From assembly GCF_000744655.1 (NCBI RefSeq), contig NZ_JQMJ01000004.1, positions 4,030,001-4,094,000 on the forward strand: 64,000 nucleotides of DNA, given 5' to 3'. Both the position numbers and the translations under genes were made by a program. Positions within the stretch are counted from its first letter, which is position 1; every line of letters begins with the position of its first letter. Positions 28,691 through 59,106 of the stretch are shown here, piece by piece. This DNA comes from Streptacidiphilus rugosus AM-16 (GTDB lineage: Bacteria > Actinomycetota > Actinomycetes > Streptomycetales > Streptomycetaceae). Under the pieces are notes generated by a model. It did not search any database. It was given only the letters and a program-made list of their open reading frames with translations, and was not told the origin of the DNA.

Positions 28691-28712
28691 ACTAACTGGA
28701 CAACCAGTCAGT
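28691..28712. promoter_or_regulatory. Regulon operator, site A
   Basis: ACTAACTGG and CCAGTCAGT flank a 4-base spacer, giving a near-perfect inverted repeat. The half-sites are identical to those at 43776 and 59085. It lies about 100 bases upstream of the permease gene at 28815 and 65 bases upstream of the divergent kinase start, and probably binds the TetR protein encoded at 45217. Confidence 0.8.
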
Positions 28713-38193: not shown

Positions 38194-39378
38194 CTACTCC
38201 TCACCCGCCTCGCGCTGACGCGGGAACTGGAGGAAGTCGGTGCCGCGCTTCTTCAGCTCGTTGGAGATGACCAGGCGCTGGACCTCGCTCGTGCCCTCCC
38301 AGATGCGGTCGACACGCAGTTCGCGGTAGAGGCGCTCCACGGCGAACGAGCGGTCGTAGCCGCGGCCGCCGAAGATCTGGACGCAGCGGTCGACGACCCG
38401 GCCGGCGGCCTCGCTCGCGGAGAGCTTGGCGATGGAGGCCTTGGCGTGGACGGTCTTGCGGTCCGTGCCGTGGTCGGCCTCCCAGGCGACCTGGTGGGTG
38501 AAGGAGCGGTTGACCGCGATGTCCACGGCGCAGTCGGCGAGCATCGCCTCGATCATCTGGAAGTCGGCGATCGGCTGCCCGAACTGACGCCGGTTCAGTG
38601 CCCACTCACGCGCCTCGCGCAGCGCCCGCTCCGCCGCGCCGATGGTGCGGGCCGCGATCATCAGGCGCTCCTCGGTGAACCAGGCGCGGGTGATGTCGTA
38701 GCCGTTGCCGAGGCCGCCGAGTACCCGGTCGGCGGGGACGAAGACGTTCTCGAAGGTGTACTCGGGGTGCTCGTAGACGAAGGTGTGCATGAAGCGCGGG
38801 GTGCGCTGGAGGGTGATGCCCTCCGTCTGCTTGTCCACCAGGAACAGGGTCGGCTGCCGTTCCTCGCCCGCCAGGGCGAGCAGCACCATGAAGTCCGCGT
38901 GGTCGCCGACGGTGACGAACCACTTCTCGCCGTTGATCAGCCAGCCGCCCTCGGTCTCCGTGGCGGTGGTGCGCAGCGACTGCGGGTCGGAGCCCGCCTC
39001 GGGCTCGGTGACGGCGTAGCAGTCGCGACGCTCGCCCCGGATGACCGGCTCCAGGTAGGCGGCACGCTGTTCGTCGGTGCAGAAGCGCAGCGCGTTCGCG
39101 GGACGCCAGACGGTGTCCCACAGCGCGCCGGTCAGCTCGCCCAACTGCTCCTGGACGACGACCTGGTCCAGGATGGTCAGGCCAGCGCCGCCCCAGGCGG
39201 AGGGCATGTTGACCGCCTGCAGCCCGCTGGCCAGGACCTGCTCGCGGATCTTGGCGTGGGCGGCGGCCGGGAGGCCATTGTCGCGCTCGCAGTCGTCCTC
39301 GTACTGCTTGATGAACTCGGCCAGCCCGGCGGCGCGCTCGCGCAGCTCCAGCTGCGCCGGGGTGTAGCTGAACTCCAT
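38194..39378 (-). CDS. Acyl-CoA dehydrogenase (island copy 1)
   Basis: This 394-residue flavoenzyme should introduce an alpha-beta double bond into an acyl-CoA. Features are YAVTEPEAGSDPQSLRTTATE (FAD and substrate loop), WLINGEKWFVT, the helical C-terminal domain, RQFGQPIADFQMIEAMLAD, CVQIFGGRGYDRSFAVERLYRELRVDRIWEGTSEVQRL. The Glu in WEGTSE is not the catalytic base position of all subfamilies. It is the last gene of the minus-strand operon starting at 43764, downstream of an acyl-CoA ligase, so it probably acts on the CoA ester formed by that ligase. Confidence 0.92.
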   Translation of the reverse strand: MEFSYTPAQLELRERAAGLAEFIKQYEDDCERDNGLPAAAHAKIREQVLASGLQAVNMPSAWGGAGLTILDQVVVQEQLGELTGALWDTVWRPANALRFCTDEQRAAYLEPVIRGERRDCYAVTEPEAGSDPQSLRTTATETEGGWLINGEKWFVTVGDHADFMVLLALAGEERQPTLFLVDKQTEGITLQRTPRFMHTFVYEHPEYTFENVFVPADRVLGGLGNGYDITRAWFTEERLMIAARTIGAAERALREAREWALNRRQFGQPIADFQMIEAMLADCAVDIAVNRSFTHQVAWEADHGTDRKTVHAKASIAKLSASEAAGRVVDRCVQIFGGRGYDRSFAVERLYRELRVDRIWEGTSEVQRLVISNELKKRGTDFLQFPRQREAGEE

Positions 39379-39410: not shown

Positions 39411-41519
39411 TCAGCTGTGGGGCTGGGCCGGGGTGGTGAGGACGACGCGCGCGTCGAGGGCGAGTGCGCCGGTCGGGGTGAGCAGCAGCGGGTTGACTTC
39501 GATCTCGCCGATCTCCGGGTGGGCGGCGGCGAGTTCGCTGACGGTGGCGATCGCGCGGGCGGCCGCGTCCAGGTCGACGCCGGAGCGGCCGCGCACGCCG
39601 TGCAGCAGCGGCGCGCCGCGCAGCCGGTCCAGCAGGGCGCGGGCCGCGTCGGGGGTGACCGGTGCGAGCGCGAAGACGACGTCGCGCAGGACCTCGGTGA
39701 GCACGCCGCCGAGGCCGACCAGCAGGACGGGGCCGAAGCGTGGATCCCAGCGTGCGCCCACGATCAGTTCCACGCCGTCGCGCAGCTCGGCCATCTCCTC
39801 GACCGAGTAGGCGGGCGCGTGCAGCCGTTCGTCCATCGCCGCGTGCGCGGCGAGCAGGGCGTCGCGGTCGAGCAGCCCGAGGGCGACGCCGCCGGCGTCG
39901 GACTTGTGCAGCAGCCCGGTGGCCTTGAGCACGTAGGGGGGCCGCAACTGCGCTGCCGCGTCGGCGACCTGGGCGGTGTCGGTGGCGGCGAGGGCCGCGG
40001 TGAACGGGAGCCCGGCGGCGGCCAGCAGGGCGCGGTCGGCGAGGTAGCCGGCTTCGGTGACCGGTGCCGCCGGGGCAGGCAGCGGGGCGGGGGCGGCGCC
40101 GCCTCCGGCCGAGGCAGCGGCCAGGGCGAGGAGCGCCCGGACGGCGTCCTCGGTGGCGGCATGCACGGGCAGCCCGGCCTCGGCGAGGATCCGGCAGGAG
40201 GGCGCGTCGGGGTACATGCTCTGGACCACCACCGGCTTGCCACTCGCGGCCGCGGTCCCGGCCAACGCCCGGGCGGCCGCGCGCTCGGCGTCGCCCGCGT
40301 CGCCGAGGCCCTCGGCGGAGGCGGAGTAGCCGCCGAAGTAGCCGGTCAGCAGGACGGCGTCGATCTCGTCGGCCGCGAGCAGCGCGCCGACACCGCGGGC
40401 GTAGCAGAGCGGGTCCTGCTCGCCGAGGCCGGCGAGGTCGACCGGGTTGTCGGCCGGGGAGTTCTCCCAGAGTGCCGCCGTGACGGCCTTTCGGGTCGCC
40501 GGTTCGAGCGCGGGAACGGTGAAGCCCGCGGCGTCGAGGGTGTCGGCGGCGATGGTGCCGTGGCCGCCGCCGTCGGTGAGCACGGCGACACGCCGCAGGG
40601 GGCCGCCGCGGGAGGGGGCGTGCAGCGCGCCGAGGACGGTGGCGAACTCACGGAGGCTGTGCACCCGGTGGATCCCGCTGTCGCGGCAGACGGCGTCGAT
40701 GACGGCGGTCGGGCTGGTCATCGAGCCGGTGTGGGACAGTGCGCTGCGCATGGCCGCGTCGCTGCCGCCGGGGGCGAGCAGTACGACGGGCTTGCCCAGT
40801 GACGCGGCCTCGGCCGCCGCGGCGGCGAAGGCCCGGCCGTCGCGGAAGTCCTCCGCGTAGACGGCGACGACCTTGGTCTCCGGGTGTCGCGCGCAGTCCC
40901 TGACCAACTCGACGAGGGTGAGGTCGGCCTGGTTGCCGAGGGAGACGAAGCGGGAGAAGCCGTGACCGCTGCGGGCCAGCCGCAGCTGCAGCTCCAGGCC
41001 GACGTTGCCGCTCTGGCTGAGCAGGGCGACCCCGCCGTCCCGGAACGGGTCGGAACTGAGGTGCAGCTCGGTCGAGTTGTCGGCGAGGCCGAGGCAGTTG
41101 GGACCGACCAGCACCGCCCCTGCGGCCCGCACCCTGGCGACGGCGGCCTGCTGGATCGCCTCGCCCTGCGGCCCGAGTTCGCCGAGCCCTGCGGTGATCG
41201 CGACCAGGGCGCGCGCCCCGCAGTCGAGCGCCTCGTCCACCGCCTGAGCGAATCCCCCGGCGGGCACGCTGAGGACGGCGAGGTCGACGCCGCCGCCGAT
41301 CTCGCGCAGGGAGGTGGCGACCGGCTGCCCGAGGATCTCGCCGCCGCGCCGGTTGACCAGGTGGACGGGACGGCGACCACTGCCGCGCAGCGCCTGCCGG
41401 GCCACGGCGTAACCCCACTTCGCGGGGTCGGCGCTGGCTCCGACGATGGCGACCGAGCGCGGATCGAACAGCGCGGAGAGATCCCGCGCGGGCGGCGGGG
41501 GCGGCGGTGCGGGCGGCAT
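39411..41519 (-). CDS. Acyl-CoA synthetase, ADP-forming (acetate-CoA ligase family)
   Basis: This 702-residue single-chain ligase would form a CoA thioester with ATP, giving ADP and phosphate. The N-terminal CoA-binding domain begins SVAIVGASADPAKWGYAVARQ; the phosphohistidine region is ALSHTGSMTSP; the C-terminal ATP-grasp domain (about residues 480-700) has PPYVLKATGLLHKSDAGGVALG and GEIEVNPLLLTPTG. It is like NDP-forming acetyl-CoA synthetases and the non-regulated relatives of protein acetyltransferase Pat, without a GNAT domain. The ATG at 41519 is chosen; the open frame upstream to 41804 is pyrimidine-rich repeat sequence. The acid substrate is unknown. Confidence 0.88.
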   Translation of the reverse strand: MPPAPPPPPPARDLSALFDPRSVAIVGASADPAKWGYAVARQALRGSGRRPVHLVNRRGGEILGQPVATSLREIGGGVDLAVLSVPAGGFAQAVDEALDCGARALVAITAGLGELGPQGEAIQQAAVARVRAAGAVLVGPNCLGLADNSTELHLSSDPFRDGGVALLSQSGNVGLELQLRLARSGHGFSRFVSLGNQADLTLVELVRDCARHPETKVVAVYAEDFRDGRAFAAAAAEAASLGKPVVLLAPGGSDAAMRSALSHTGSMTSPTAVIDAVCRDSGIHRVHSLREFATVLGALHAPSRGGPLRRVAVLTDGGGHGTIAADTLDAAGFTVPALEPATRKAVTAALWENSPADNPVDLAGLGEQDPLCYARGVGALLAADEIDAVLLTGYFGGYSASAEGLGDAGDAERAAARALAGTAAASGKPVVVQSMYPDAPSCRILAEAGLPVHAATEDAVRALLALAAASAGGGAAPAPLPAPAAPVTEAGYLADRALLAAAGLPFTAALAATDTAQVADAAAQLRPPYVLKATGLLHKSDAGGVALGLLDRDALLAAHAAMDERLHAPAYSVEEMAELRDGVELIVGARWDPRFGPVLLVGLGGVLTEVLRDVVFALAPVTPDAARALLDRLRGAPLLHGVRGRSGVDLDAAARAIATVSELAAAHPEIGEIEVNPLLLTPTGALALDARVVLTTPAQPHS

Positions 41520-41692: not shown

Positions 41693-41887
41693 TCAGGCGA
41701 GCCTGAGGGCCTTCGCGGGGCAGATGCGGGCTGCGGCTTCGGCGGCCACACGGTGCTCCTGGGGGACGTCGGCGGCTTCCGGTCGGAGGCCCGCGTAGCC
41801 CCACTCGTCCAGGTCGAGGAGGTCCGGGGCCTGCTCGTGGCAGAGCCCGTAGCCCTGGCAGAGGGTGGCGTCGAGGTGGAGTTTCAC
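41693..41887 (-). CDS. Ferredoxin, 3Fe-4S type with C-x2-Tyr-x2-C
   Basis: This 64-residue ferredoxin starts MKLHLDATLCQGYGLCHEQAP and ends with a CP motif (RICPAKALRLA). The cluster motif is C10-x2-Y13-x2-C16, then C-P: the second cysteine of a 4Fe-4S motif is replaced by tyrosine. Actinobacterial 3Fe-4S or alternatively ligated ferredoxins vary at this residue and usually serve cytochromes P450. No P450 gene is present; the neighbours are a NuoF-like NADH-binding flavoprotein and two Rieske oxygenases, so it probably shuttles electrons from NADH to the oxygenases. Confidence 0.9.
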   Translation of the reverse strand: MKLHLDATLCQGYGLCHEQAPDLLDLDEWGYAGLRPEAADVPQEHRVAAEAAARICPAKALRLA

Positions 41888-41983
41888 GGGTCGGCTCCTT
41901 GCGTCGTCGTCGGAGAGGCGGTGGGAGAGAAAGGCAGGGTGGGGAGGTGAGGCAGGGCGGGGCAGGTCAGGCGAGGCGGACGA

Positions 41984-43291
41984 TCAGGCCGGCTCGGGGA
42001 GGAGCGCCAGGTCGAGGGCGAAGCGCGTGCGGCGGGGAAACCCGCCGTGCGCCGCGCAGCGCGGGCAGGCGGCGGCGACGTGCTCGGCCACCGCGTCGGG
42101 GCGGGTGCGCAGCAGCGCCGCGACGTTGCCCGCCGCCGCGTCGAGCAGGCCGCACGCTCCCCTGCCGGGCAGCGTCGTGGACCATCGGCGCAACTGTTCG
42201 ACCTGCTCCGCCGCGGCCTCGCCCCGGCACAGCGCGGCGAGCGCCTGGGCCATCGCCGCGGTGCCGCGCAGGCAGGCGCCGCACTGCTTCGCGCTCTCGG
42301 CCGCGAGGTAGCCGAGGATGTCGGCGGCGGCGTGGACGGGGCAGTCCTGCGGGCCGAGGGCGACGACCGCGCCGCAGCCCAGCTGTGCGCCGAGCGTCCG
42401 AAGGCTCGCCGGAGCCAGGACCAGCCCGGGGTCGGCGGCGAGGACGCCGCCGAAGAAGCCGCCGAGGAGCACGTCGGTCGCGGTGGCGGCCGTGGTGCCG
42501 GGGGCCTCGCCTGCGTGGTGCGCCAGCAGCTCGCCCAGCACGGTCCCGTAGGGCAGTTCGTAGAGGGCCGGCCGGTGGCCCAGGCCGGAGACGGTGGCCA
42601 GGAAGGTGTCGGCGCGCCCGCTCGCTCCGGAGGCGAGCAGCGCCAGATGGGCCAGCGTCTCGACGTTCAGCACCAGGGTGGGCTCGCCGCCGACGCCCGC
42701 CTCGAAGACGCGCGGGGGCTTGGCCGTGGGCAGGGCGGGTCCGCCGTCGAGGTGGCGGACCAGGGCCGACTCCTCGCCCGCGACGTAGGCCTCCGGTACG
42801 AGCCTGACCTCGATCCGCAGCGGCCACTCCGGCGGGTTCTCCCGCAGGGCCCGGCGCAGCGAGTTCGCCGCCGGGGCGTCGCTGACGACGACGAAGGCCT
42901 GTTGCGCGCCGACGGCCGCCGCCGCGTGGGCGACGCCGTCGAGCACGAGGTGGGGTCGCATCCTGGTCAGGAAACGGTCCTTGACGCTGGCGGGTTCGCC
43001 CTCGGTGCCGTTGGCGATGACCGTGCGCGGGCCCGGCGGCTGGGCGTTGACCCCGGCGATCTTCACTGCTGCGGGGAACCCGGCTCCGCCGCGTCCGCGC
43101 AGGTCGGCGGCGGCGAGGCGGCGTTCCAGCTGCTCCGCCGGTCCGGTGGGCCGGTAGCCGCCCACCGCCCGGTAGGCGGCGGCGTCCTCACGGCGTTGCG
43201 GCGCCGTGCCGAGCAGCAGGGCGGGCGTGCCGACCGCGGACGCCTCACGGACCTGCGCCTCGACGGCGGGCGTCGCGGTCAGCGGCTGCAT
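41984..43291 (-). CDS. NuoF-like NADH-binding Fe-S flavoprotein
   Basis: This 435-residue protein is a stand-alone relative of the 51-kDa subunit of complex I. It has the FMN-binding LRGRGGAGFPAAVKIAG, NADH-binding YVAGEESALVRHLDG and NVETLAHLA, and the 4Fe-4S motif AKQCGACLRGT with a fourth cysteine in GRGACGLLDAA. No other complex I genes are present, so it is not respiratory. Beside a ferredoxin and Rieske oxygenases it most likely acts as the NADH:ferredoxin reductase of the demethylase system. Its start overlaps the upstream hypothetical gene by 13 bases. Confidence 0.87.
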   Translation of the reverse strand: MQPLTATPAVEAQVREASAVGTPALLLGTAPQRREDAAAYRAVGGYRPTGPAEQLERRLAAADLRGRGGAGFPAAVKIAGVNAQPPGPRTVIANGTEGEPASVKDRFLTRMRPHLVLDGVAHAAAAVGAQQAFVVVSDAPAANSLRRALRENPPEWPLRIEVRLVPEAYVAGEESALVRHLDGGPALPTAKPPRVFEAGVGGEPTLVLNVETLAHLALLASGASGRADTFLATVSGLGHRPALYELPYGTVLGELLAHHAGEAPGTTAATATDVLLGGFFGGVLAADPGLVLAPASLRTLGAQLGCGAVVALGPQDCPVHAAADILGYLAAESAKQCGACLRGTAAMAQALAALCRGEAAAEQVEQLRRWSTTLPGRGACGLLDAAAGNVAALLRTRPDAVAEHVAAACPRCAAHGGFPRRTRFALDLALLPEPA

Positions 43292-43764
43292 GTCGGCTCC
43301 TCGCGGGTGGCGTCGGGCCGGGCCCCGGCCGCGAGGCGGTGGCGCAGGCGGCGGGCGGCGTGGTCGAGGTCGGCGCGGTGGCGGGCGGTGCGGGCGTAGT
43401 GGTCGCCGGGCAGGCCGATGAGCAGCCGGCAGTGGTCGGCGAGCACCTCGGCGGCGGTCAGCGCGGGGGCCAGCTGGGCCGGGCGGCCCTCGCGGGCTGC
43501 CCGGCCGACCAGCGAGACCGCCTCGTCAAGGCCGGCCAGCCAGCTGCGTGCGTTCCCGCGCAGCACCAGCCGCTCGATGCGCCGGCGTTCGGCGCGCACC
43601 TGTCCTGCGGCGTCGCCAGGTGCCGACGGTTCGTCATCCGGTGATCGCAGCAGGGCGAGTACGTCGGGGAGCAACTGCTCGGGTTCGGGGGTCAGGCTCA
43701 GCCAGGCGAGCCTGGTCGCGGATCGTGGTGCCCTCACAGCGGGTGCCTCCTCGGTCGCCGCCAT
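43279..43764 (-). CDS. Hypothetical helical protein, first gene of the operon
   Basis: This 161-residue protein is alanine- and arginine-rich and predicted mostly helical (LLPDVLALLRSPDDEPS, QVRAERRRIERLVLRGNARSWLAGLDEAVSLVG, LTAAEVLADHCRLLIGLPGDHYARTARHRADLDHAARRLRH). I do not recognise a family or a cofactor motif. It overlaps the NuoF-like gene and is the promoter-proximal gene of the operon. Operator site B starts 11 bases upstream of its ATG. A role as assembly or accessory factor for the electron chain is possible. Confidence 0.6.
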   Translation of the reverse strand: MAATEEAPAVRAPRSATRLAWLSLTPEPEQLLPDVLALLRSPDDEPSAPGDAAGQVRAERRRIERLVLRGNARSWLAGLDEAVSLVGRAAREGRPAQLAPALTAAEVLADHCRLLIGLPGDHYARTARHRADLDHAARRLRHRLAAGARPDATREEPTCSR

Positions 43765-43775
43765 CCTGGCACGAG

Positions 43776-43797
43776 ACTAACTGGTTGACCAGTCAGT
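43776..43797. promoter_or_regulatory. Regulon operator, site B
   Basis: ACTAACTGG-N4-CCAGTCAGT with spacer TTGA lies 11 bases upstream of the minus-strand operon start at 43764, where a bound repressor would block initiation. Both half-sites are identical to sites A and D. Confidence 0.85.
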
Positions 43798-43913: not shown

Positions 43914-43935
43914 CCTAACTGGCCATTCGATCAGT
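43914..43935. promoter_or_regulatory. Regulon operator, degraded site C
   Basis: CCTAACTGG-N4-TCGATCAGT keeps the spacing of sites A, B and D but matches 8 of 9 and 6 of 9 half-site positions. It lies 63 bases upstream of the Rieske gene at 43999. A TTGACA is 21 bases upstream of it. Confidence 0.55.
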
Positions 43936-43998: not shown

Positions 43999-45159
43999 AT
44001 GGAGTCCATCACCGCAGCGTCCCGACCCCTGCTGCCCGCGTACTACACCGACCCGGCCGTCCTGGCCGCCGAACAGCGCCGGGTCTTCGCCCGGACCTGG
44101 CAGCTCGCCGGGCACGTCTCCGACCTGCCGGAACCCGGCTCCCGCATCGTCGCGCGGGCCGGTGACCAGGAAGTCCTGGTCGTCAGGGACGAGGACGGCG
44201 AACTGCACGCCCACCGCAACGTCTGCCGCCATCGCGGCGCGCGCCTGGTCGCCGCCCCGGAGCAGCACGCGGCGATCCGCTGCCCCTACCACGGCTGGAC
44301 CTACCGCCTCGACGGCCGGCTGATCGGCGCCCCCGAGGGCCGACGCTTCGCCGCGCCGCTGGACAAGCCGAACCTCGGCCTGCTGCCCGCGCGCGTGGAG
44401 GTCTGGCACGGCCTGGTCTTCGTCAACCTGGACACCAGGGCGGCCCCGCTCGCGGACCAGCTGTACGGCCTGGACCGGCTGGTCGGCCGCTACCTCGGCG
44501 ACCGGCTGGTCCCCGTCGGCAGGTCGCGGATGCACGACATCGCCGACCCCGCCGGAACCGGGGTCGTGGGCACCGAGGCGAACTGGAAGGTCGCCGTCGA
44601 CAACTACCTGGAGGGCTACCACGTCCCGGTCGCCCACCCCGGCCTGATGCGGCTGCTGGACTACCAGAACTACACGGCAGAGCCCAGCGAGGGCTACGCC
44701 TACTTCGAAGCGCCGCTGCGCGAGACCCGCAGCGCCAACCGGCTGGAGCGGCTCTACCAGCGGCTGGTCAGCCCGATGCCGGGGCTGCTGCCCGAGGACC
44801 GCGACGTCTGGCGCTATGTGGCGATCTACCCCAACACCATGATCGACCTCAGCGCGGACTGTGTCGGCGTCTGGTCCATGGTCCCCGACGGCGTCGGTCG
44901 CACGCTGCTGCCCGGCGCCATCTACCGGCACCGGGACGCGGGGCTGCGCACGCGTCTGGCGCAGGCGGTCGGCCAGCGGGTCAACCGCCTGGTGACCGAC
45001 GAGGACGACGACATCGTCAGCCGTGTCCAGGCCGGCCTGCGCACGCCGGGGTTCACGCCAGGACCGCTCAGCGAGCGGGAGGCGGCGATCGGCTGGTTCG
45101 CCGACCGGATCCGCACGGACCTGGGCATCGACGCGCCCGCCGAGGACGGCGGCCGGTGA
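43999..45159 (+). CDS. Rieske non-heme iron oxygenase, quaternary-ammonium demethylase type (1)
   Basis: This 386-residue oxygenase alpha subunit has Rieske ligands C76, H78, C95 and H98 (NVCRHRGA and RCPYHGW). The mononuclear iron site is in DNYLEGYHVPVAHPGL, with H208 and H213 and nearby acidic residues D201 and E205. The C-terminal VQAGLRTPGFTPGPLSEREAAI matches the GbcA, stachydrine demethylase and choline-monooxygenase branch rather than aromatic dioxygenases. It would hydroxylate an N-methyl group, releasing formaldehyde, with electrons from the divergent NuoF-like/ferredoxin pair. The ATG follows GAGGAG. It leads the plus-strand operon with TetR and transporter genes. Confidence 0.88.
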   Translation: MESITAASRPLLPAYYTDPAVLAAEQRRVFARTWQLAGHVSDLPEPGSRIVARAGDQEVLVVRDEDGELHAHRNVCRHRGARLVAAPEQHAAIRCPYHGWTYRLDGRLIGAPEGRRFAAPLDKPNLGLLPARVEVWHGLVFVNLDTRAAPLADQLYGLDRLVGRYLGDRLVPVGRSRMHDIADPAGTGVVGTEANWKVAVDNYLEGYHVPVAHPGLMRLLDYQNYTAEPSEGYAYFEAPLRETRSANRLERLYQRLVSPMPGLLPEDRDVWRYVAIYPNTMIDLSADCVGVWSMVPDGVGRTLLPGAIYRHRDAGLRTRLAQAVGQRVNRLVTDEDDDIVSRVQAGLRTPGFTPGPLSEREAAIGWFADRIRTDLGIDAPAEDGGR

Positions 45160-45216: not shown

Positions 45217-45888
45217 GTGTCAGGCGTGTCGGGCGAGCCCGCCGAGCGCACCGCCGCGACCCGGCGGCGGATCCTGGAGGCAGCCTGCGAGGTGATCGCC
45301 GACGTGGGCTTCGAGAAGGTGCGGATGCGGATGGTGGCCCAGCGGGCCGGGGTCTCCCCCGGCCTGCTCCACTACCACTTCGAAAGCCGGGAACGGCTCT
45401 TCGCCGAGGCGCTGCGGCACTCGTACGAGCACACCGGCGCCGCAGGGCACGCCCACGGCGACGGCTCGGCCGGCACCGACCACCCCGCGACGGTGCGGCT
45501 CGCGATGGCGATCGACGCCTGCCTCCCGCTGGCCCCCGACACCCGCCAGGACCAACTGCTCTGGCACGAGCTCTGGCTGCGCGCAGCCAGGGACCAGGCC
45601 TCGCGGCTACTCGCCCTGGAGTTCTACCGCAGCCTGCACGACTGGTTCGCCGGGATCGTGCGCGACGGCATCGCCACGGGCGAGTTCCAGCTCTGCGAGG
45701 TGGACGAGCTGGTCACGCTGCTGCTGCTCCTGCTGGACGGCAGCGCCATCCGGCTCACGCTGGACGATCCGGGCTTCACCGCCTCCGCCGCCCGCGCCCG
45801 GATCTGGGCGCGCATCGGCCCGGAACTCCGGTTGCCCGCCCGCATGCCGAGGGCGGGCGGCCGGCCGAACCTCCCCAAGCCCCGCTGA
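45217..45888 (+). CDS. TetR family transcriptional regulator, probable master of the island
   Basis: This 223-residue regulator has an N-terminal helix-turn-helix (TRRRILEAACEVIADVGFEKVRM, MVAQRAGVSPGLLHYHFESRERLFAEAL) and a helical ligand-binding domain resembling BetI-like repressors. Start is GTG at 45217; a second GTG lies nine bases later. It is 57 bases downstream of the Rieske gene and 22 bases before the binding-protein gene. Palindromes A, B, C and D have the size expected of TetR operators and frame the operons of this island, so it is the best candidate for the regulator. The ligand may be the transported amine or a CoA ester. Confidence 0.88.
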   Translation: MSGVSGEPAERTAATRRRILEAACEVIADVGFEKVRMRMVAQRAGVSPGLLHYHFESRERLFAEALRHSYEHTGAAGHAHGDGSAGTDHPATVRLAMAIDACLPLAPDTRQDQLLWHELWLRAARDQASRLLALEFYRSLHDWFAGIVRDGIATGEFQLCEVDELVTLLLLLLDGSAIRLTLDDPGFTASAARARIWARIGPELRLPARMPRAGGRPNLPKPR

Positions 45889-45910: not shown

Positions 45911-47089
45911 ATGCCTTCCAGATCAGGACAGCCTCCACGGCCGACAGAGCGCCCGCAGCCGGCGAGGCCCGCCCCGAGCCGACGCGCGCTGCTGCGCGGC
46001 GCGACCGGCGCATTGGTCGGCGCGGCCGCCCTGCCCGCGCTCAGCGCCTGCGGCTACGTCTCCTCCGCAGCCCAGCCCGACGACCTGCCGCCGGTCGAGC
46101 CGAAGATCGACGGCGACCTCGTCTACTTCAACTGGGCCGACTACGTCGACCCGGCCGTGCTGGCGGGCTTCAGCAAGGAGTACGGCGTCTCGGTGACCCA
46201 GGCCAACTACGACTCGATGGAGTCGATGGCCGCCAAGATCGCGGCGGGCAACCGCTACGACGTCGTGTTCCCGAGCGCCAAGTGGACGCAGCGCCTGGTG
46301 CGGGCAGGCGCGCTGCGCCGCCTCGACCTCCGCCGGGCGCCGCATGCCGGAGCCGTGCTCAGCGCCTATCCGTGGTTCGCCGACCCCTGGTACGACCCCG
46401 GCTCGGCGCACAGCGTGCCGTTCACGATGTACAAGACCGGCATCGCCTGGCGCAAGGACAAGCTGGGCCCGGCCCTGGACCACAGCTGGGCCGATCTCTG
46501 GGACCGCCGCGCCACCGGTCGCACCTACCTGCTGGACGACGAGGACGAGGTGCTCGGCGTCGGCGCGCTGCGGCTCGGCTACCGCGTCGACACCGCCGAC
46601 CCCGGCCAACTGGGCAGGATCACCGACCTGATGGGCACCGTCAGGTCGCGGCTGCGGGGCTTCTCCAGCGACGACTACACCAACCTGCTCAACGGCGACG
46701 CATGGATCCAGCACATGTGGAGCGGTGACATGGCCGCCGTGCTCAGCCAGGCCGCCGATCCCTCCCGGTACGGCTTCGAGGCCCCGCGCGAGGGCGCGCC
46801 CATCAACTCCGACTGCTACGCGATCCCGCGCAACGCCGCCCACCCGGGCACGGCGCTGCTCTTCATCGACTACATGCTGCGGCCGGAGAACGCCCGCAGG
46901 AACCTCGCCTACATCGGCTACCCGATGCCGGTGCCGGGGACCGAGCGGGACTACGCCAAGCTCGTCGAGCCGTTCCCCGAGTGCCTGGTCACCCTGGACG
47001 ACCTGGCCCGCGGCCACCACTTCGGCAATACCGGCGCGACGGGCAACCAGGCCCGCGACGCCGCCTGGACCCAGATCAAGGCGGGGTGA
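45911..47089 (+). CDS. ABC substrate-binding lipoprotein, polyamine type (1)
   Basis: This 392-residue lipoprotein has a twin-arginine signal (SRRALLRG, R24-R25) and a lipobox ending at C47 (LPALSACG), so it is probably exported by Tat and anchored outside the membrane. The mature part resembles PotD/PotF: VYFNWADYVDPAVLAGFSKEYGV, RYDVVFPSAKWTQRLV, INSDCYAIPRNAAHPGTALLFIDYML. It should bind a polyamine-like or quaternary cation. It heads the transporter block SBP-permease-permease-ATPase. Confidence 0.92.
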   Translation: MPSRSGQPPRPTERPQPARPAPSRRALLRGATGALVGAAALPALSACGYVSSAAQPDDLPPVEPKIDGDLVYFNWADYVDPAVLAGFSKEYGVSVTQANYDSMESMAAKIAAGNRYDVVFPSAKWTQRLVRAGALRRLDLRRAPHAGAVLSAYPWFADPWYDPGSAHSVPFTMYKTGIAWRKDKLGPALDHSWADLWDRRATGRTYLLDDEDEVLGVGALRLGYRVDTADPGQLGRITDLMGTVRSRLRGFSSDDYTNLLNGDAWIQHMWSGDMAAVLSQAADPSRYGFEAPREGAPINSDCYAIPRNAAHPGTALLFIDYMLRPENARRNLAYIGYPMPVPGTERDYAKLVEPFPECLVTLDDLARGHHFGNTGATGNQARDAAWTQIKAG

Positions 47090-47094
47090 ACACC

Positions 47095-48033
47095 ATGCCG
47101 GAGACCTCAGCACCCGTCCGCACCGAGACCCCGACCCCACGCGAAAGCCCACGCCCACGTTCACACCCGAGCGCACGCCCGGGGCGGAGCGGCAACCGCC
47201 TCTGGACCGCGCTGCTGCTGCCGGGAACGGTCTGGATGACCGTCTTCTTCCTCGGCGCCCTGGGCATCCTGCTGCTGCTCTCCTTCGGCACCACCGACGA
47301 CCTGGGCGACCCCCGTTTCGGGCACACGTTGCAGAACCTGCGGGCCCTGCTGCACCCCGTCTACCTCCAGGTCATCGGCCGCTCGCTGGCCTACGCCGCG
47401 ATCACCGCGGTGCTGTGCCTGGCCATCGCCTACCCCGTGGCGTACGCGATCGCGCTCCACGGGGGACGGTTCAGGCACGCCCTGATCGCCGCCGTGGTGG
47501 TGCCGTTCTTCGCCAACTACCTGGTGCGGATGTACGGGTGGGTGACGCTGCTCTCCGACGACGGTCCGGTGCTGCGGGCGCTCCGCGCCCTCGGGCTGCC
47601 CGCCGACGTGCGGCTGCTCAACACGCCGGGCGCGGTGATCGGCGGGCTGGTCTACGGCTTCGTCGTCTTCATGGTGCTGCCGCTGTACGCGGCGCTGGAA
47701 CGGCTGGACGTCTCCCTGATCGAGGCCGGCCGGGACCTGGGCGGCGGGCCGTTCTCCACCTTCTGGCGGGTCACCCTGCCCGCCACCCGGCAGGGCGTGA
47801 CGGCCGGGCTGCTGCTGGTCTTCCTGCCCGCGATGGGCGACTTCGTGAGCGCCCAACTGCTCGGCGGGCCGCGGCAGCTGATGATCGGCAGCCTGATCCA
47901 GGACAAGTTCTTCGGCGGGCAGGACTGGCCGCTCGGCTCGGCGCTCACCATGCTGCTCATGCTCGTGCTGCTGATCTGCACGTCCGTCTACCTGCGCCAG
48001 GCCGCGCGGGAGAACCGGGAGGCGTCCCGATGA
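47095..48033 (+). CDS. ABC permease, PotB type
   Basis: This protein of about 312 residues has six membrane helices after a proline-rich cytoplasmic N-terminus. The EAA loop is EAGRDLGGGPFSTFWRVTLPATRQG, and GDFVSAQLLGGPRQLMIGSLI is as in PotB permeases. ATG at 47095 follows AAGGCGGGG; an alternative GTG at 47086 would overlap the stop of the binding-protein gene. Its stop overlaps the start of the next permease gene. It forms the importer with genes at 45911, 48030 and 48883. Confidence 0.92.
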   Translation: MPETSAPVRTETPTPRESPRPRSHPSARPGRSGNRLWTALLLPGTVWMTVFFLGALGILLLLSFGTTDDLGDPRFGHTLQNLRALLHPVYLQVIGRSLAYAAITAVLCLAIAYPVAYAIALHGGRFRHALIAAVVVPFFANYLVRMYGWVTLLSDDGPVLRALRALGLPADVRLLNTPGAVIGGLVYGFVVFMVLPLYAALERLDVSLIEAGRDLGGGPFSTFWRVTLPATRQGVTAGLLLVFLPAMGDFVSAQLLGGPRQLMIGSLIQDKFFGGQDWPLGSALTMLLMLVLLICTSVYLRQAARENREASR

Positions 48034-48878
48034 TCCGCCTGCTGCCGGGACGCCGTGGCGTCGAGCGCCGCCCGCGCTTCGCCATCGCCGTGACCGCCGT
48101 CTTCTTCGTGCTGCTCTACCTGCCCATCGGCGTCGTGACGCTCTTCTCCTTCAACAGCAAGAAGTCGCTGACCTCCTTCGGCCACCCCAGCCTGCGCTGG
48201 TACCGGGCGTTCCTCGGCGACCCGGACCTGACCGGGTCGGTGTTCACCAGCCTCCAGGTCTCGGCCGTGGCCATGGTGGGCTCTGTCGTCCTCGGCGCCG
48301 CGCTGGCGCTGGGGCTGGTCCGGGCCAGGAGCCGGATGGGCGGGCTGGCCAACCTCATCATGCTGATCCCGCTGATCACCCCGGAGATCGTGACCGGCGT
48401 CGGCTCGCTGCTGCTCTTCCGCGGCCTGGAGCTCACCCCGTCGATGACGACGCTGCTGCTCGCCGAGACCACCTTCTCCGTCTCCTACGTCACCGTGATC
48501 CTGCGCTCCCGGGTGGCGGCGCTGAATCCGGAGGTCGAGGAGGCGGCGATGGACCTGGGCGCGACCCGGGGCCAGGCGCTGCGCCTGGTGACCCTGCCCG
48601 CGCTGCTGCCCGCGCTGCTGGCCTCGGCCCTGCTGGTCTTCGCCCTCGTCTTCGACGACTTCGTGCTCGCCTACTTCACCAGCGGGGTCACCCCGCAGCC
48701 GATCTCCGTGCGGATCTACTCCGAGATCCGCTTCGGCATCCAGCCCAGCGTCAACGCCGTCGGCACGCTGATGCTGGCCGGCTCGCTCACCCTCATCGCC
48801 TTCGCCCTGGCCGTGCCCCGCCTTCTCGGGCGCGGCCACACCAGTGGCGGCGGCATCGACCTGCTCTCCGGAGGCTGA
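48030..48878 (+). CDS. ABC permease, PotC type
   Basis: This 282-residue permease has six membrane helices and the EAA loop EAAMDLGATRGQALRLVTLPALL, followed by DDFVLAYFTSGVTPQPISVRIYSEI, typical of PotC. The ATG overlaps the upstream stop (ATGA). It pairs with the PotB-type permease to form the channel. The second permease pair in this window (28815-30674) is of the same two types, so the genome has two channels that could share one ATPase. Confidence 0.93.
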   Translation: MIRLLPGRRGVERRPRFAIAVTAVFFVLLYLPIGVVTLFSFNSKKSLTSFGHPSLRWYRAFLGDPDLTGSVFTSLQVSAVAMVGSVVLGAALALGLVRARSRMGGLANLIMLIPLITPEIVTGVGSLLLFRGLELTPSMTTLLLAETTFSVSYVTVILRSRVAALNPEVEEAAMDLGATRGQALRLVTLPALLPALLASALLVFALVFDDFVLAYFTSGVTPQPISVRIYSEIRFGIQPSVNAVGTLMLAGSLTLIAFALAVPRLLGRGHTSGGGIDLLSGG

Positions 48879-48882
48879 CGCC

Positions 48883-50007
48883 ATGACGACGACGCCCACC
48901 GCTCCGTCCACGACGGTAGCCGGAACCACCGACGACGCCGCAGCCTTTCCCGCCGTGCAACTCGAACGAGTGACCAAGCGTTTCGGTGGCACGACCGTGG
49001 TGCACGAGCTCGACCTGGACATCCGCGCCGGCGAGTTCTTCTCCCTGCTCGGCCCTTCGGGCTGCGGCAAGACCACCACGCTGCGCATGATCGGCGGCTT
49101 CGCCGACCCGACCGACGGGCGGATCCTGCTCGGCGGCGAGGACGTGACCGTGCTCCCGCCCAACCGGCGCGACGTCAACACCGTCTTCCAGAGCTACGCG
49201 CTGTTCGAGCACCTGCACGTCCTCGACAACGTGGGCTTCGGCCTGCGGCGCAAGGGCGCCTCGCGCGCGGAGGCGCGGCGGCAGGCCGCCGGAGCCCTGG
49301 AGCTGGTGCAGCTGGCCGACCGCGCCAAGGCCCGGGTCCGCGAGCTGTCCGGCGGCCAGCGCCAGCGCGTGGCGCTGGCCCGGGCGCTGGTGAACCGGCC
49401 CAAGGTGCTGCTGCTGGACGAACCCCTCGCCGCGCTGGACCTGAAGCTGCGTCGGCAGATGCAGATCGAGCTGAAGCAGCTGCAGCGCGAGGTCGGCATC
49501 ACCTTCGTCTTCGTCACCCACGACCAGGACGAGGCGCTGACCATGTCCGACCGCCTCGCGGTCATGCACGACGGCAGGATCGAGCACTGCGGCACGCCCG
49601 AGGAGGTCTACGAGCGCCCGGCCACCGCGTTCACCGCGGGCTTCATCGGCACTTCGAACCTCATGCCAGGCGAGTACCGCGACGGCGCGGTGACCATCGC
49701 CCCCGGCGTCTCCCTCGCCGTCGGCCGGCGCGCCGGGTTCACCGAGGGCGAGCAGGTCAGCGCCTCGGTGCGACCGGAGAAGCTGTGGCTGTCCGAGCAC
49801 GGGGACGACATGGTGACGGTGCCGGGCACGCTGGTCGAGACGGTCTACTCGGGACCGGTGACCAGCTACCTGGTCGAGCTCGCCCCCGGCGTCCAGGTCA
49901 GCGTGCTGGAGCAGAACACCGACCGCTCCCGCCGCGAGGAGCGCTGGCAGAACGGCCAGCCGCTCACCGTCGGCTTCCGCCTGGAGCACTGCCTGCTGCT
50001 GCGCTGA
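48883..50007 (+). CDS. ABC transporter ATP-binding protein, PotA type
   Basis: This 374-residue ATPase has Walker A GPSGCGKTTTLRM, Q-loop TVFQSYALFEHL, signature LSGGQRQRVALARAL, Walker B VLLLDEPLAALD, H-loop VTHDQDEALTM and a C-terminal TOBE regulatory domain (about 280-370). It energises polyamine-type import. It follows the PotC gene by four bases with GGAGG upstream. It is the only such ATPase in the window and might also serve the orphan permease pair. Confidence 0.95.
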   Translation: MTTTPTAPSTTVAGTTDDAAAFPAVQLERVTKRFGGTTVVHELDLDIRAGEFFSLLGPSGCGKTTTLRMIGGFADPTDGRILLGGEDVTVLPPNRRDVNTVFQSYALFEHLHVLDNVGFGLRRKGASRAEARRQAAGALELVQLADRAKARVRELSGGQRQRVALARALVNRPKVLLLDEPLAALDLKLRRQMQIELKQLQREVGITFVFVTHDQDEALTMSDRLAVMHDGRIEHCGTPEEVYERPATAFTAGFIGTSNLMPGEYRDGAVTIAPGVSLAVGRRAGFTEGEQVSASVRPEKLWLSEHGDDMVTVPGTLVETVYSGPVTSYLVELAPGVQVSVLEQNTDRSRREERWQNGQPLTVGFRLEHCLLLR

Positions 50008-51817: not shown

Positions 51818-52045
51818 AGCGTTGCCTCCGTTCGTGCTCCGCTTCGGCTCCACTCCGGCCGCGTGCCGACTGCGCTCGTCCCTCGCTCCGCCGACCCGCA
51901 ACCTCCGCTCCACCTCAGCTTCGCGCTCACAGCGTTGCCTCCGTTCGTGCTCCGCTTCGGCTCCACTCCGGCCGCGTGCCGACTGCGCTCGTCCCTCGCT
52001 CCGCCGACCCGCAACCTCCGCTCCACCTCAGCTTCGCGCTCACAG
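51811..52045. repeat. Tandem 113-bp duplication between mscR and the MBL gene
   Basis: Two copies (51811-51923 and 51924-52036) of a 113-bp unit are followed by nine bases of a third (CGCTCACAG). On the minus strand each unit begins at a GTGAGC that overlaps the preceding stop and ends with a GGAGG ribosome site before the next GTGAGC. The first unit thus opens a 38-codon frame whose stop overlaps the next start. Confidence 0.92.
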
Positions 52046-53125
52046 GATCACCACCGAGCGCAGCACCTCGCCCTTCTCCATCCGGTGGAAGGCCTCCTCG
52101 ACCTGGTCCAGCGTGATCGTCTCGGAGACGAAGGCGTCCAGGTCCAGGCGACCCTGGAGGTAGAGGTCGATCAGCATCGGGAAGTCCCGCGACGGCAGGC
52201 AGTCCCCGTACCAGGAGGACTTGAGCGAGCCGCCGCGCCCGAAGACGTCCAGCAGCGGGAGTTCCAGCTTCATGTCCGGCGTGGGGACGCCGACCAGGAC
52301 GACCGTGCCCGCCAGGTCGCGGGCGTAGAAGGCCTGCTTGTACGTCTCCGGGCGGCCGACCGCCTCGATGACGACGTCCGCGCCGTTGCCGCCGGTCAGC
52401 TCGCGGATCGCCTCGACGGCGTCGGTCTCGCGCGAGTTGACCGCGTGGGTGGCACCCAGGCGCTGCGCGGTGGCGAGCTTGCCGGGGTCGATGTCCACGG
52501 CGATGACCTTGGACGCGCCCGCCAGCCGCGCGCCCATCACGGCCGCGTTGCCGACGCCGCCGCAGCCGATCACGGCGACGGTGTCGCCGCGCGAGACGCC
52601 GCCGGTGTTGACCGCCGCGCCGAGCCCGGCCATCACGCCGCAGCCGAGCAGTCCGGCCGCGGCCGGGGACGCGGCCGGGTCGACCTTGGTGCACTGGCCG
52701 GCCGCGACCAGCGTCTTCTCGGCGAACGCGCCGATGCCGAGCGCGGGCGACAGCTCGGTGCCGTCCTCCAGCGTCATCTTCTGCTTCGCGTTGTGCGTGT
52801 TGAAGCAGTACTGCGGGCGGCCGCGCCGGCAGGAGCGGCACTGGCCGCAGACCGCGCGCCAGTTGAGGATGACGTAGTCCCCGGGCTCGACCTCGGTGAC
52901 GCCCTCGCCGACGGACTCGACGATCCCGGCCGCCTCGTGGCCGAGCAGGAACGGGAACTCGTCGTTGATGCCGCCCTCGCGGTAGTGCAGGTCGGTGTGG
53001 CAGACGCCGCAGGCCTGCACCTTCACCACCGCCTCCCCGGGGCCGGGGTCGGGGACGACGATCGTCTCGATCCGTACCGGCTCGCCCTTGCCCGGGGCGA
53101 TGACTCCGCGTACGCGCTGTGCCAT
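52040..53125 (-). CDS. mscR: S-(hydroxymethyl)mycothiol dehydrogenase
   Basis: This 361-residue zinc-dependent alcohol dehydrogenase oxidises the formaldehyde-mycothiol adduct with NAD. It has the catalytic zinc ligands in [16 protein letters not shown] and GHEAAG, structural zinc cysteines in [15 protein letters not shown], the Rossmann motif [14 protein letters not shown] and the family signature [26 protein letters not shown] precedes the ATG at 53125. Its position inside an island with two Rieske demethylases and a DgcA-like enzyme gives it a clear task: removing formaldehyde from N-demethylation. Whether it is the only formaldehyde dehydrogenase of the organism cannot be seen. Confidence 0.94.
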
Positions 53126-53231
53126 CTGCTCGTTCTCCTTCGTCCCGCTCGGTGCCGCTGTTCCGACCACTCTGCTTCAAGGCCGTGCTGCTGTACTGAT
53201 CACCGCCCTGCCGACGGCGTCCCTCGAACCG

Positions 53232-54704: not shown

Positions 54705-56095
54705 GCCTGGGCTCCCTTCGGGCGGACGCCGCCGCGCAGGTCGGCGGCCATCCGCTCCAGGTTGGCCAGGAAGCGCTGTGCGTCCTCGTCGGTGTGCTGG
54801 ACCGAGGCGGTCCACTGCTCGCACTTGCCCCACGGCGGCAGGAAGACGCTGCCGTTGTGCTGGTAGAGCCAGTGGGCGTTGCCCCACTGGTCGTCGTAGG
54901 CGAGGAAGTCGCGGTAGTTCTCCAGCCGGTCGGTGAAGAGCACGGCGCCCTTGCAGCCGAAGGAGCGGACGAAGCCGGGGAGTTCGTAGCGGCGCAGGAT
55001 CTCCTCGGCGCCCTCGGTCATGGTGCGGCGCAGCGTGTCGAAGCCGCTGTAGGCCTCTGGGGTGAGGATGTCCTGGAGCACGGCGCGCGCGGCGGCCATG
55101 GTGAGCGGGTTGCCGTTGAAGGTGCCGACCTGCTCGTAGGCGCCCTGGGTGATCAGGTCCATCAGCTCGGGGATGCCGCCGATCGCGCCGCAGGGCAGGC
55201 CGCCGCCGAGGGCCTTGGCCAGGCAGACCAGGTCGGGGGTGACGCCGGTGAGGCCGACCGCCCCGGCGGGGCTGAGCGCGAGGCCGGTCTTGACCTCGTC
55301 GAAGGCGAGGTAGGCGCCGTGCGCGTGCAGGAGGTCCTTGAGTGCGGCCAGGTAGCCGGGCGGCGGGGGGATCAGGCCGATGTTCATCATCACCGGCTCG
55401 ATGATCATCCCGGCGATCTGTCCGGCGTTCTCGGTCAGCACCCGCTCGACGGCGGCCAGGTCGCCGAAGGGGACGACGACGGTCAGCCGGACCACCTCCT
55501 GGGGGTAGGCCGGGCCCACCGGGACGGAGTTGGGGCGTTCGGCCGGTCCGGCCTTCTCCGGCGCGGGGTAGACGGAGACCTGCACGCTGTCGTGGTGGCC
55601 GTGGTAGGTGCCCTCCACCTTGATGATCTTCGGGCGGCCGGTGGCGACCCGCATCAGGTGGATCGCGTCCATCGTCGACTCGGTGCCGGAGTTGTTGTAG
55701 CGCCAGATGGGGAGGCCGTAGCGGGCGGAGAGCTCACGGGCCACCACGACCGCGTCCTCGGTGGGCTGGGCGAAGTGCGTGCCGCGCCGGACCCGCTCCG
55801 AGACGGCGGCGACGATCGCCGGGTGGGCGTGGCCGACGATCCCGACACCGAAGCCCCCGTGCAGGTCGGTGTACTCGGTGCCGTCCACGTCCCAGGTGCG
55901 CGAGCCCTTGCCCTCGCGGATCCAGACGGTGCCGGGCTGGGCGTCCTGCCAGCTGGAGGCGACGCCGCCGGCCAGCACGGAGCCCGCCTCGGCGCGGATC
56001 CGCTGGGACTCGGTGGTGCGGTCCAGGAAGATCTTCGACTGCAGCTCGATCATGTCGTCGAGCCGGGAGAGGTCCTCGGGGGTGCTTCCGCTCAT
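54701..56095 (-). CDS. Class III aminotransferase, glutamate-1-semialdehyde mutase-like
   Basis: This 464-residue PLP enzyme shows HGGFGVGIVGHAHPAIVAAV, NNSGTESTMDAIHLMRVATG, VEGTYHGHHDS, the PLP Asp in LAFDEVKTGL and the Schiff-base Lys in CLAKALGGGLPCGAIGG. It resembles HemL but sits in a catabolic operon and has altered ends, so it is not expected to make tetrapyrrole. It would transaminate a primary amine or amino acid to an aldehyde or oxo acid for the adjacent aldehyde dehydrogenase. It overlaps both neighbours by four bases. Confidence 0.9.
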   Translation of the reverse strand: MSGSTPEDLSRLDDMIELQSKIFLDRTTESQRIRAEAGSVLAGGVASSWQDAQPGTVWIREGKGSRTWDVDGTEYTDLHGGFGVGIVGHAHPAIVAAVSERVRRGTHFAQPTEDAVVVARELSARYGLPIWRYNNSGTESTMDAIHLMRVATGRPKIIKVEGTYHGHHDSVQVSVYPAPEKAGPAERPNSVPVGPAYPQEVVRLTVVVPFGDLAAVERVLTENAGQIAGMIIEPVMMNIGLIPPPPGYLAALKDLLHAHGAYLAFDEVKTGLALSPAGAVGLTGVTPDLVCLAKALGGGLPCGAIGGIPELMDLITQGAYEQVGTFNGNPLTMAAARAVLQDILTPEAYSGFDTLRRTMTEGAEEILRRYELPGFVRSFGCKGAVLFTDRLENYRDFLAYDDQWGNAHWLYQHNGSVFLPPWGKCEQWTASVQHTDEDAQRFLANLERMAADLRGGVRPKGAQA

Positions 56096-59084: not shown

Positions 59085-59106
59085 ACTAACTGGACGACCA
59101 GTCAGT
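59085..59106. promoter_or_regulatory. Regulon operator, site D
   Basis: ACTAACTGG-N4-CCAGTCAGT with spacer ACGA lies between the divergent FAD oxidoreductase gene (start 58990) and binding-protein gene (start 59176). Half-sites are identical to sites A and B, so both operons should respond to the same regulator. Confidence 0.85.

Follow-up and report, generated by a model that had tools for sequence, protein, structure and literature searches.

A stand-alone NuoF-like protein and a small ferredoxin as a candidate electron supply for a group V-like Rieske oxygenase in Streptacidiphilus rugosus

The stretch of the Streptacidiphilus rugosus AM-16 genome analyzed here, referred to as the window, comprises 64,000 nucleotides (contig NZ_JQMJ01000004.1, positions 4,030,001 to 4,094,000; coordinates below count from its first letter). 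It contains two divergent gene sets. The minus-strand set has the order orf161, nuoF-like gene, ferredoxin gene, acyl-CoA synthetase-like gene, and acyl-CoA dehydrogenase gene, while the plus-strand set consists of the Rieske oxygenase gene RSK1, a gene for a TetR/BetI-type regulator, and then ABC transporter genes; we infer that each set forms one transcript. The features relevant to this work are as follows:

28692 to 28711, no strand: operator copy without mismatch, ahead of plus-strand ABC permease genes whose called starts are 28956 and 29847
38194 to 39378, minus strand: acyl-CoA dehydrogenase (Pfam)
39411 to 41519, minus strand: ADP-forming acyl-CoA synthetase-like protein with CoA-binding, ligase, and ATP-grasp domains (start picked by eye within a longer open reading frame)
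41693 to 41887, minus strand: single-cluster ferredoxin of 64 aa with a GTG start (Pfam Fer4_15, E 1.7e-11; CQGYGLC...CP)
41984 to 43291, minus strand: NuoF-like stand-alone protein of the complex I 51-kDa type, 435 aa (Pfam, alignment)
43279 to 43764, minus strand: orf161, 161 aa, predicted to be wholly helical, at the head of the minus-strand operon, with a 13-nt overlap with nuoF
43777 to 43796, no strand: operator site 1, CTAACTGGTTGACCAGTCAG, exact, between the divergent operons
43915 to 43934, no strand: operator-like site 2, with two mismatches, on the RSK1 side
43999 to 45159, plus strand: Rieske oxygenase 1 (RSK1), group V-like (PF00355 and PF00848; Tyr203/Glu205, no Cys206/Cys209 pair)
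45217 to 45888, plus strand: TetR/BetI-type regulator, the likely reader of the operator
45911 to 50007, plus strand: ABC transporter (solute-binding protein, two permeases, ATPase)
52040 to 53170, minus strand: S-(hydroxymethyl)mycothiol dehydrogenase for formaldehyde detoxification (TIGR03451, 696 bits versus a cut-off of 512.9)
56092 to 57366, minus strand: Rieske oxygenase 2 (RSK2), with ENYHECYHC, by eye the group V Cys pair
59086 to 59105, no strand: operator copy without mismatch, flanked by the CrtI-like/Rieske 2 genes (minus strand) on one side and the solute-binding protein gene at 59176 (plus strand) on the other

Pfam searches and motif inspection upheld the coordinates and identities that the original prediction gave for the NuoF-like protein and the Cx2Yx2C ferredoxin, and the two genes indeed lie divergently from RSK1 in an operon that starts with orf161. 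As also predicted, the window contains neither an FNR-type reductase nor a P450: none of the 11 genome matches to the FNR NAD-domain (PF00175), the 12 matches to Fer2 (PF00111), or the 21 P450 matches map inside it. In a Pfam scan covering 28 proteins of the window, no GR-type reductase was recognized and no oxygenase beta subunit was seen. The genome encodes four FNR-Fer2 proteins, which by eye belong to a paa operon, to two fusion proteins, and to the vicinity of a P450/biosynthetic cluster. It also contains a third Rieske oxygenase-like gene (L189:9175-10317; C4:1291725) with 33% identity to RSK1; this gene adjoins a large gene that by eye is FAD-oxidoreductase-like, and no reductase gene was recognized nearby.

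RSK1 has both the Rieske (PF00355) and the catalytic (PF00848) domains of group V oxygenases, and its best match in the PDB is CntA (E 1.1e-34; profile 1.8e-53). Tyr203, Glu205, and His208 are invariant in the segment DNYLEGYH of 16 of 16 aligned RSK1 orthologues, which aligns with DNYMECYH of CntA; RSK1 therefore has the bridging Glu205 as well as the aromatic residue 203 of clade Va. Tyr203 of clade Va has been linked to quaternary amines, and a role in electron transfer has been assigned to Glu205; Asn is found instead in the demethylating clade Vb (PMC7948474). The Cys-X-X-Cys pair (Cys206/Cys209) that lies beside the iron in some group V members (PMC10952381) is replaced by Gly206/Val209 in RSK1. 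Counting against a clade Va assignment, GbcA (NF058607), which is a demethylase and a clade Vb enzyme, is the best NCBIfam model for RSK1 as well as for RSK2, at 139.7 and 154.7 bits, respectively, far below the cut-off of 670. Judged by these residues and matches, RSK1 is likely a quaternary-amine-type enzyme of group V and less likely the demethylase that the original prediction had assumed. The residue signature and the dehydrogenase and synthetase genes would point to carnitine or gamma-butyrobetaine as a possible substrate.

The product of orf161 has no Pfam match. It is predicted to form a helical bundle (model pLDDT 83.6), for which no PDB match was obtained at E <= 0.001; fold comparisons using VIA-align gave Z scores of up to 11.3, which may lie within the chance range for helical bundles, and we claim no kinship from them. 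orf161 lies beside RSK1 in all 29 family genomes with an RSK1 orthologue, and 20 sequences of this protein family have the motif WLxLTPExE in common. Family members with 29-34% identity also adjoin four more distant RSK1 homologues at which neither nuoF nor the ferredoxin gene was found (L211 to L213 by tblastn, L215 by eye). In its distribution, orf161 tracks the oxygenase and not the reductase.

The NuoF-like protein shares with NuoF of complex I the FMN/NADH-binding 51K domain (Complex1_51K, PF01512; E 1.4e-34) and the NADH_4Fe-4S domain (E 2.1e-15) but differs from it in being stand-alone, in its gene context, and in its N3 site. It scores below the cut-off of the NuoF equivalog model TIGR01959 (172.1 versus 558.65 bits). 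Because the 9.0-Mb genome holds four PF01512 genes, the window gene represents an extra copy. In an alignment with solved NuoF-type proteins, the first of the four Cys ligands of cluster N3 is replaced by Ala334, a loss that did not figure in the original prediction; Cys337, Cys340, and Cys380 are retained, and two additional residues, Cys306 and Cys412, are present. We extended this comparison to 90 stand-alone NuoF-like proteins in six groups (28 of the window/RSK type, 24 mycobacterial, 2 of the heme-oxygenase type, the protein of locus L151, 20 in group B, and 15 in group C; called open reading frames of >330 aa were used for the second batch of loci, and rows outside the six groups were excluded). 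At the first position, 82 of these proteins have Ala and the other 8 have Ser, and the remaining three cysteines were retained in all 90, while L072, the best PF01512 match and taken as the complex I NuoF of the genome, has Cys at the first position. Cys306 was present in 54 of 54 and Cys412 in 52 of 54 proteins of the RSK, mycobacterial, and heme-oxygenase types, versus 0 of 35 for either residue in groups B and C; in these alignments, the two cysteines mark the oxygenase-associated groups. The columns that we take to form the FMN/NADH site, assigned after Nqo1, are mostly retained in the same three types and less so in groups B and C. Because one of the four N3 ligands is absent, the inner electron route of the protein is uncertain. 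The predicted model had a pLDDT of 76.2 and a pTM of 0.81; in a tree of NuoF-like proteins, the window protein falls in no starred clade, and we claim no fine phylogeny.

The ferredoxin has the motif CXXYXXC(X)nCP of CxxYxxC single-cluster ferredoxins and is probably a [3Fe-4S] protein; a [3Fe-4S] cluster has been reported for the examined M. marinum ferredoxins of the CxxYxxC class (PMC6237146). M. marinum Fdx3, which is found with FdR1 and CYP147G1, has the same cluster motif, but the oxygenase of that system is a P450 and its reductase is the ferredoxin reductase FdR1, which the available part of the report does not describe as NuoF-like (PMC6237146). The original prediction regarded the motif as a mark of P450 partners, a view that we do not retain, as small [3Fe-4S] ferredoxins are an accepted class of Rieske partners, namely in type V systems (PMC2358900). 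For the same reason, the unusual part of the module is the reductase.

We next consider the distribution of the module. RSK1 orthologues were identified in 29 of 297 family genomes, including that of S. rugosus (54-63% identity, E <= 3.9e-120; next match 1.5e-44), and the window NuoF type in 30 (51-58% identity; G070 and G216 as partial matches). All 29 genomes with an RSK1 orthologue have the NuoF type, two of them as the partial matches, and in the 30th genome (G118) nuoF lies at a contig end. The link between the NuoF type and RSK1 exceeds chance (Fisher's test, 2e-39, for kin genomes that are non-independent), and the 29 loci reflect a cassette inherited as a block rather than independent events. 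In orthologue loci with both genes, the gap between the nuoF and RSK1 matches is 451-1504 bp, compared with 707 bp in the window. Because a related-locus scan of named genomes with the single NuoF protein as the query gave no match, we used an alignment of RSK1 instead. The best 80 of 518 relative stretches were kept and correspond to 79 loci, i.e., 16 orthologue loci (56-61% identity) and 63 more distant homologues (31-43%). Among these best 80 stretches, nuoF, ferredoxin, and orf161 are all present in 12 of the 16 orthologue loci, which are from Streptomyces, Streptacidiphilus, and Couchioplanes; three of the 12 (L197, L205, and L210) overlap genomes of the first survey (G048, G037, and G070). 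A contig end truncates one further locus (L198). The remaining three are mycobacterial (M. triplex, M. montefiorense, and one MAG) and have the ferredoxin gene and orf161 without nuoF. At the 63 more distant homologues, tblastn of the locus stretches at E 1e-7, with the 64-aa protein as the ferredoxin query, detected neither nuoF nor ferredoxin; FNR-like matches lie beside two of them (L233 and L236), a test that says little since the queries were possibly too divergent. In one family genome (G216; L161), nuoF is truncated, as are the genes for a solute-binding protein and a dehydrogenase, and no ferredoxin gene was found, which may reflect decay or an assembly fault; we excluded this locus as evidence on gene loss. 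Together with the adjacency of the genes, the co-occurrence in 29 of 29 genomes supports the predicted tie of this electron chain to RSK1. We consider it probable that RSK1 receives its electrons from this module, along a route from NADH via FMN in the NuoF-like protein and then the ferredoxin.

The placement of the operator bears on which genes are regulated together. The pattern CTRACTRRNNNNYYAGTYAG occurs with <=1 mismatch in 35 of 47 intergenic regions, and 39 of 47 contain at least two matches when up to two mismatches are allowed; these counts are partly circular, as the pattern was derived from the same regions. In addition, overlapping registers were counted separately, three genomes were included twice, once per survey, one of the regions (L213) belongs to a distant homologue, and L211 was scored on a wrong interval and entered as a miss. 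No match was found in the intergenic region of L048. A scan of the S. rugosus genome is the better test. The window contains four matches at <=2 mismatches versus 0.13 expected, and the 9.0-Mb genome contains three exact copies, all of which map to the window; those at 28692 and 59086 were not among the sequences used to derive the pattern. Genome-wide, a single copy has one mismatch (C4:5070986; by eye at TetR-like and TatA-like genes), no more than the one obtained with the reversed control. In six other genomes, the numbers of sites with <=1 mismatch relative to the reversed control were 2 versus 2 (G042), 5 versus 3 (G078), 2 versus 1 (G574), 2 versus 2 (G572), and 0 versus 2 (G030 and G517); these totals are barely above the control and only placement is informative, with sites at the RSK1 locus in G042, G078, and G574. 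At <=1 mismatch, no site was found at loci L149 and L151 or at the four FNR-Fer2 genes. The finding that, according to the original prediction, would have spoken against the module, i.e., an FNR-type reductase in the regulon outside the window, was thus not made, and neither the window, free of PF00175 and PF00111, nor the operator sites at <=1 mismatch point to a two-component system of the GbcB/CntB type with an FNR and plant-type 2Fe-2S reductase. Judged by the exact copies, the S. rugosus regulon would include both Rieske oxygenases together with a single ferredoxin and a single candidate reductase.

The original prediction had the chain serve both Rieske oxygenases; this stands for RSK1, given co-occurrence and adjacency, while for RSK2 the support is the common operator. 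An exact operator copy ahead of the Rieske 2 operon, and the finding of no reductase among the scanned neighbors of RSK2, would also fit a chain that feeds RSK2 rather than RSK1, or both equally. However, RSK2 relatives (E <= 1e-70) occur in 3 of 297 genomes, including that of S. rugosus, the other two lack the window NuoF type and gave no match to FNR queries nearby, and it is RSK1 that accompanies the module wherever RSK1 occurs; we regard this alternative as very improbable.

NuoF-like genes were also surveyed more widely. A class-level search of 394 genomes identified 38 with a NuoF match of >280 bits, and we examined the neighborhoods of 36 (G508 and G553 were left out). Gene calls and names at survey loci are from our own script, BLAST to window proteins, and inspection by eye, with Pfam on representatives; calling was poor in loci of lower G+C content such as L149. 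Twenty-five of the 36 genes lie <=2 kb from a gene for a small Rieske ferredoxin (Pfam on representatives; the others by tblastn, with 74-99% identity to a tested one), and 23 of these 25 are in family f4, which we take to be mycobacterial. Seven neighborhoods contain RSK1, and an eighth is that at the contig end in G118; of the others, one has a heme oxygenase gene (L150), one an alpha-beta Rieske oxygenase (L151), and one none found (L149). At L145, one of the 25, a Rieske oxygenase gene followed by a plant-type Fer2 ferredoxin gene lies alongside the nuoF-ferredoxin pair.

In two families, the NuoF-like and ferredoxin genes lie directly beside a heme oxygenase gene (L070:8966-11212, in the family of S. 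rugosus, and L150:8451-10759). In the clusters L123 to L137 and L139 to L148, mostly of f4, the NuoF-like gene is accompanied by genes for a ferredoxin (CDGFGxC where called) and a small Rieske ferredoxin, as well as for two amidohydrolases and one alpha/beta hydrolase; P450-like genes are often close by. We infer that this f4 ferredoxin, encoded beside NuoF-like genes, is the same gene as M. marinum Fdx6, which has a CXXFXXC motif and lies near CYP190A3 (PMC6237146). A related NuoF-like group (L071, L073, L075, L076, L079 to L082, L097 to L102, L153 to L156, and L159) has ferredoxins mostly with CxGHGxC or CxGRGxC, and several of its members adjoin genes for ferric-reductase-like membrane proteins and ApbE (Pfam on L097 only).

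Several loci deviate from the pairing of the NuoF type with RSK1. The mycobacterial-type RSK1 loci without nuoF number four (L138 and L207 to L209), and all of them retain the ferredoxin gene and orf161; L138 (G574), a locus resembling the mycobacterial ones, has an intact ferredoxin gene, and G574, the only such genome that we checked, carries a NuoF-like gene at another site. These loci argue against the original description of the chain as private. L149 is a clear exception: it has nuoF, a ferredoxin with 67% identity over the full length that is among the closest, and synthetase and ABC transporter genes (L149:9230-10617), and tblastn detected no RSK1-like sequence in 19.6 kb. Both sets of loci count against electron supply to RSK1 and fit a general NADH:ferredoxin module that rides in a catabolic island, with RSK1 reduced in trans and the ferredoxin serving another step of the pathway. 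The tblastn result at the 63 more distant homologues, with neither gene detected at E 1e-7, and the plant-type Fer2 ferredoxin gene at L145 likewise speak against supply to RSK1 by this module. The four FNR-Fer2 reductases could act in trans in this manner, and the related nuoF-like genes next to those for ferric-reductase-like proteins and ApbE would also suit a general role. We nevertheless hold such a role to be unlikely. The NuoF type and RSK1 are adjacent as well as co-occurring, the ferredoxin stays with RSK1 where nuoF is absent, and no FNR gene has an operator copy at <=1 mismatch. Moreover, L048 retains the ferredoxin-nuoF-orf161/RSK1-TetR arrangement, with no orthologues of the transporter, dehydrogenase, and synthetase genes within 19.6 kb.

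L048 bears equally on a reversed role, in which electrons from the acyl-CoA dehydrogenase branch would pass via the ferredoxin back to NAD+, as the location of the dehydrogenase and synthetase genes directly downstream in most loci might suggest. ETF is the usual acceptor of acyl-CoA dehydrogenases, ETF-like genes (by eye) lie near the L048 module, and L070, L150, and L151 link related modules to oxygenases. We judge a reversed role to be very improbable. Supply of electrons to RSK1, the reading that we favor, gains further support from the related nuoF-ferredoxin pairs with the Rieske oxygenases of L151 and L145 and the heme oxygenases of L070 and L150.

In the favored pathway to RSK1, NADH would reduce FMN in the NuoF-like protein, single electrons would then move via the remnant of its N3 Fe-S site onto the small ferredoxin, and the ferredoxin would reduce the Rieske center of RSK1, with orf161 as a presumed partner of the oxygenase. 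The putative TetR/BetI-type regulator would govern both divergent operons, and two further operators would extend its control to an ABC transporter and to the Rieske 2 operon; because the latter would be reached in this way, the same chain may also feed RSK2.

The 2008 classification of Rieske systems distinguishes five types with reductases of the GR, FNRC, or FNRN kind (PMC2358900). Type V systems such as PhdABCD, which consist of an oxygenase, a [3Fe-4S] ferredoxin, and a GR-type reductase, likewise place a small single-cluster ferredoxin between reductase and oxygenase, but the window reductase is NuoF-like instead of GR-type and the oxygenase is group V-like (PMC2358900). CntA/CntB, the group Va carnitine monooxygenase, resembles our system in that RSK1 is nearest CntA among solved proteins, with Tyr203, Glu205, and His208 aligned; it differs in the absence of Cys206/Cys209 from RSK1 and in that CntB is an FMN reductase with its own ferredoxin center, with no separate ferredoxin in the available account (PMC7948474). 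The available part of a 2025 review (PMC12445004) contains no mention of NuoF or 3Fe-4S that we found, and in the titles and abstract beginnings of open-licence papers, we found no NuoF-type system with Rieske proteins, ferredoxin, P450, mycobacteria, or heme oxygenase. The components are of known kinds, and their NuoF-ferredoxin-Rieske combination is new as far as this literature search reaches. On our best reading, the NuoF-like protein would represent a reductase class outside the GR and FNR types of the 2008 classification as far as the consulted part of it goes (PMC2358900).

The occurrence of NuoF-like relatives beside heme oxygenases, other Rieske oxygenases, and Rieske ferredoxins suggests a wider class of oxygenase reductases. 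As a tentative and joint proposal, which we rate at somewhat less than an even chance, stand-alone NuoF-type flavoproteins would be a widespread, unrecognized class of oxygenase reductases in Actinobacteria that, with CxxYxxC/CxxFxxC ferredoxins, deliver electrons to Rieske as well as heme oxygenases and possibly to P450 clusters of mycobacteria, the three-Cys N3 site would be retuned for higher-potential acceptors, and orf161 would be a new subunit of RSK1-type oxygenases. If such a class exists, the Rieske classification needs a sixth type. For the system described here, orf161 is a possible unrecognized oxygenase partner, and a reductase derived from complex I would extend the classes of Rieske systems by one, would offer a candidate reductase for actinobacterial 3Fe-4S-type ferredoxins without an assigned one, and would provide a concrete system in which to test the function of a 51-kDa subunit apart from complex I and with only part of an N3 site.
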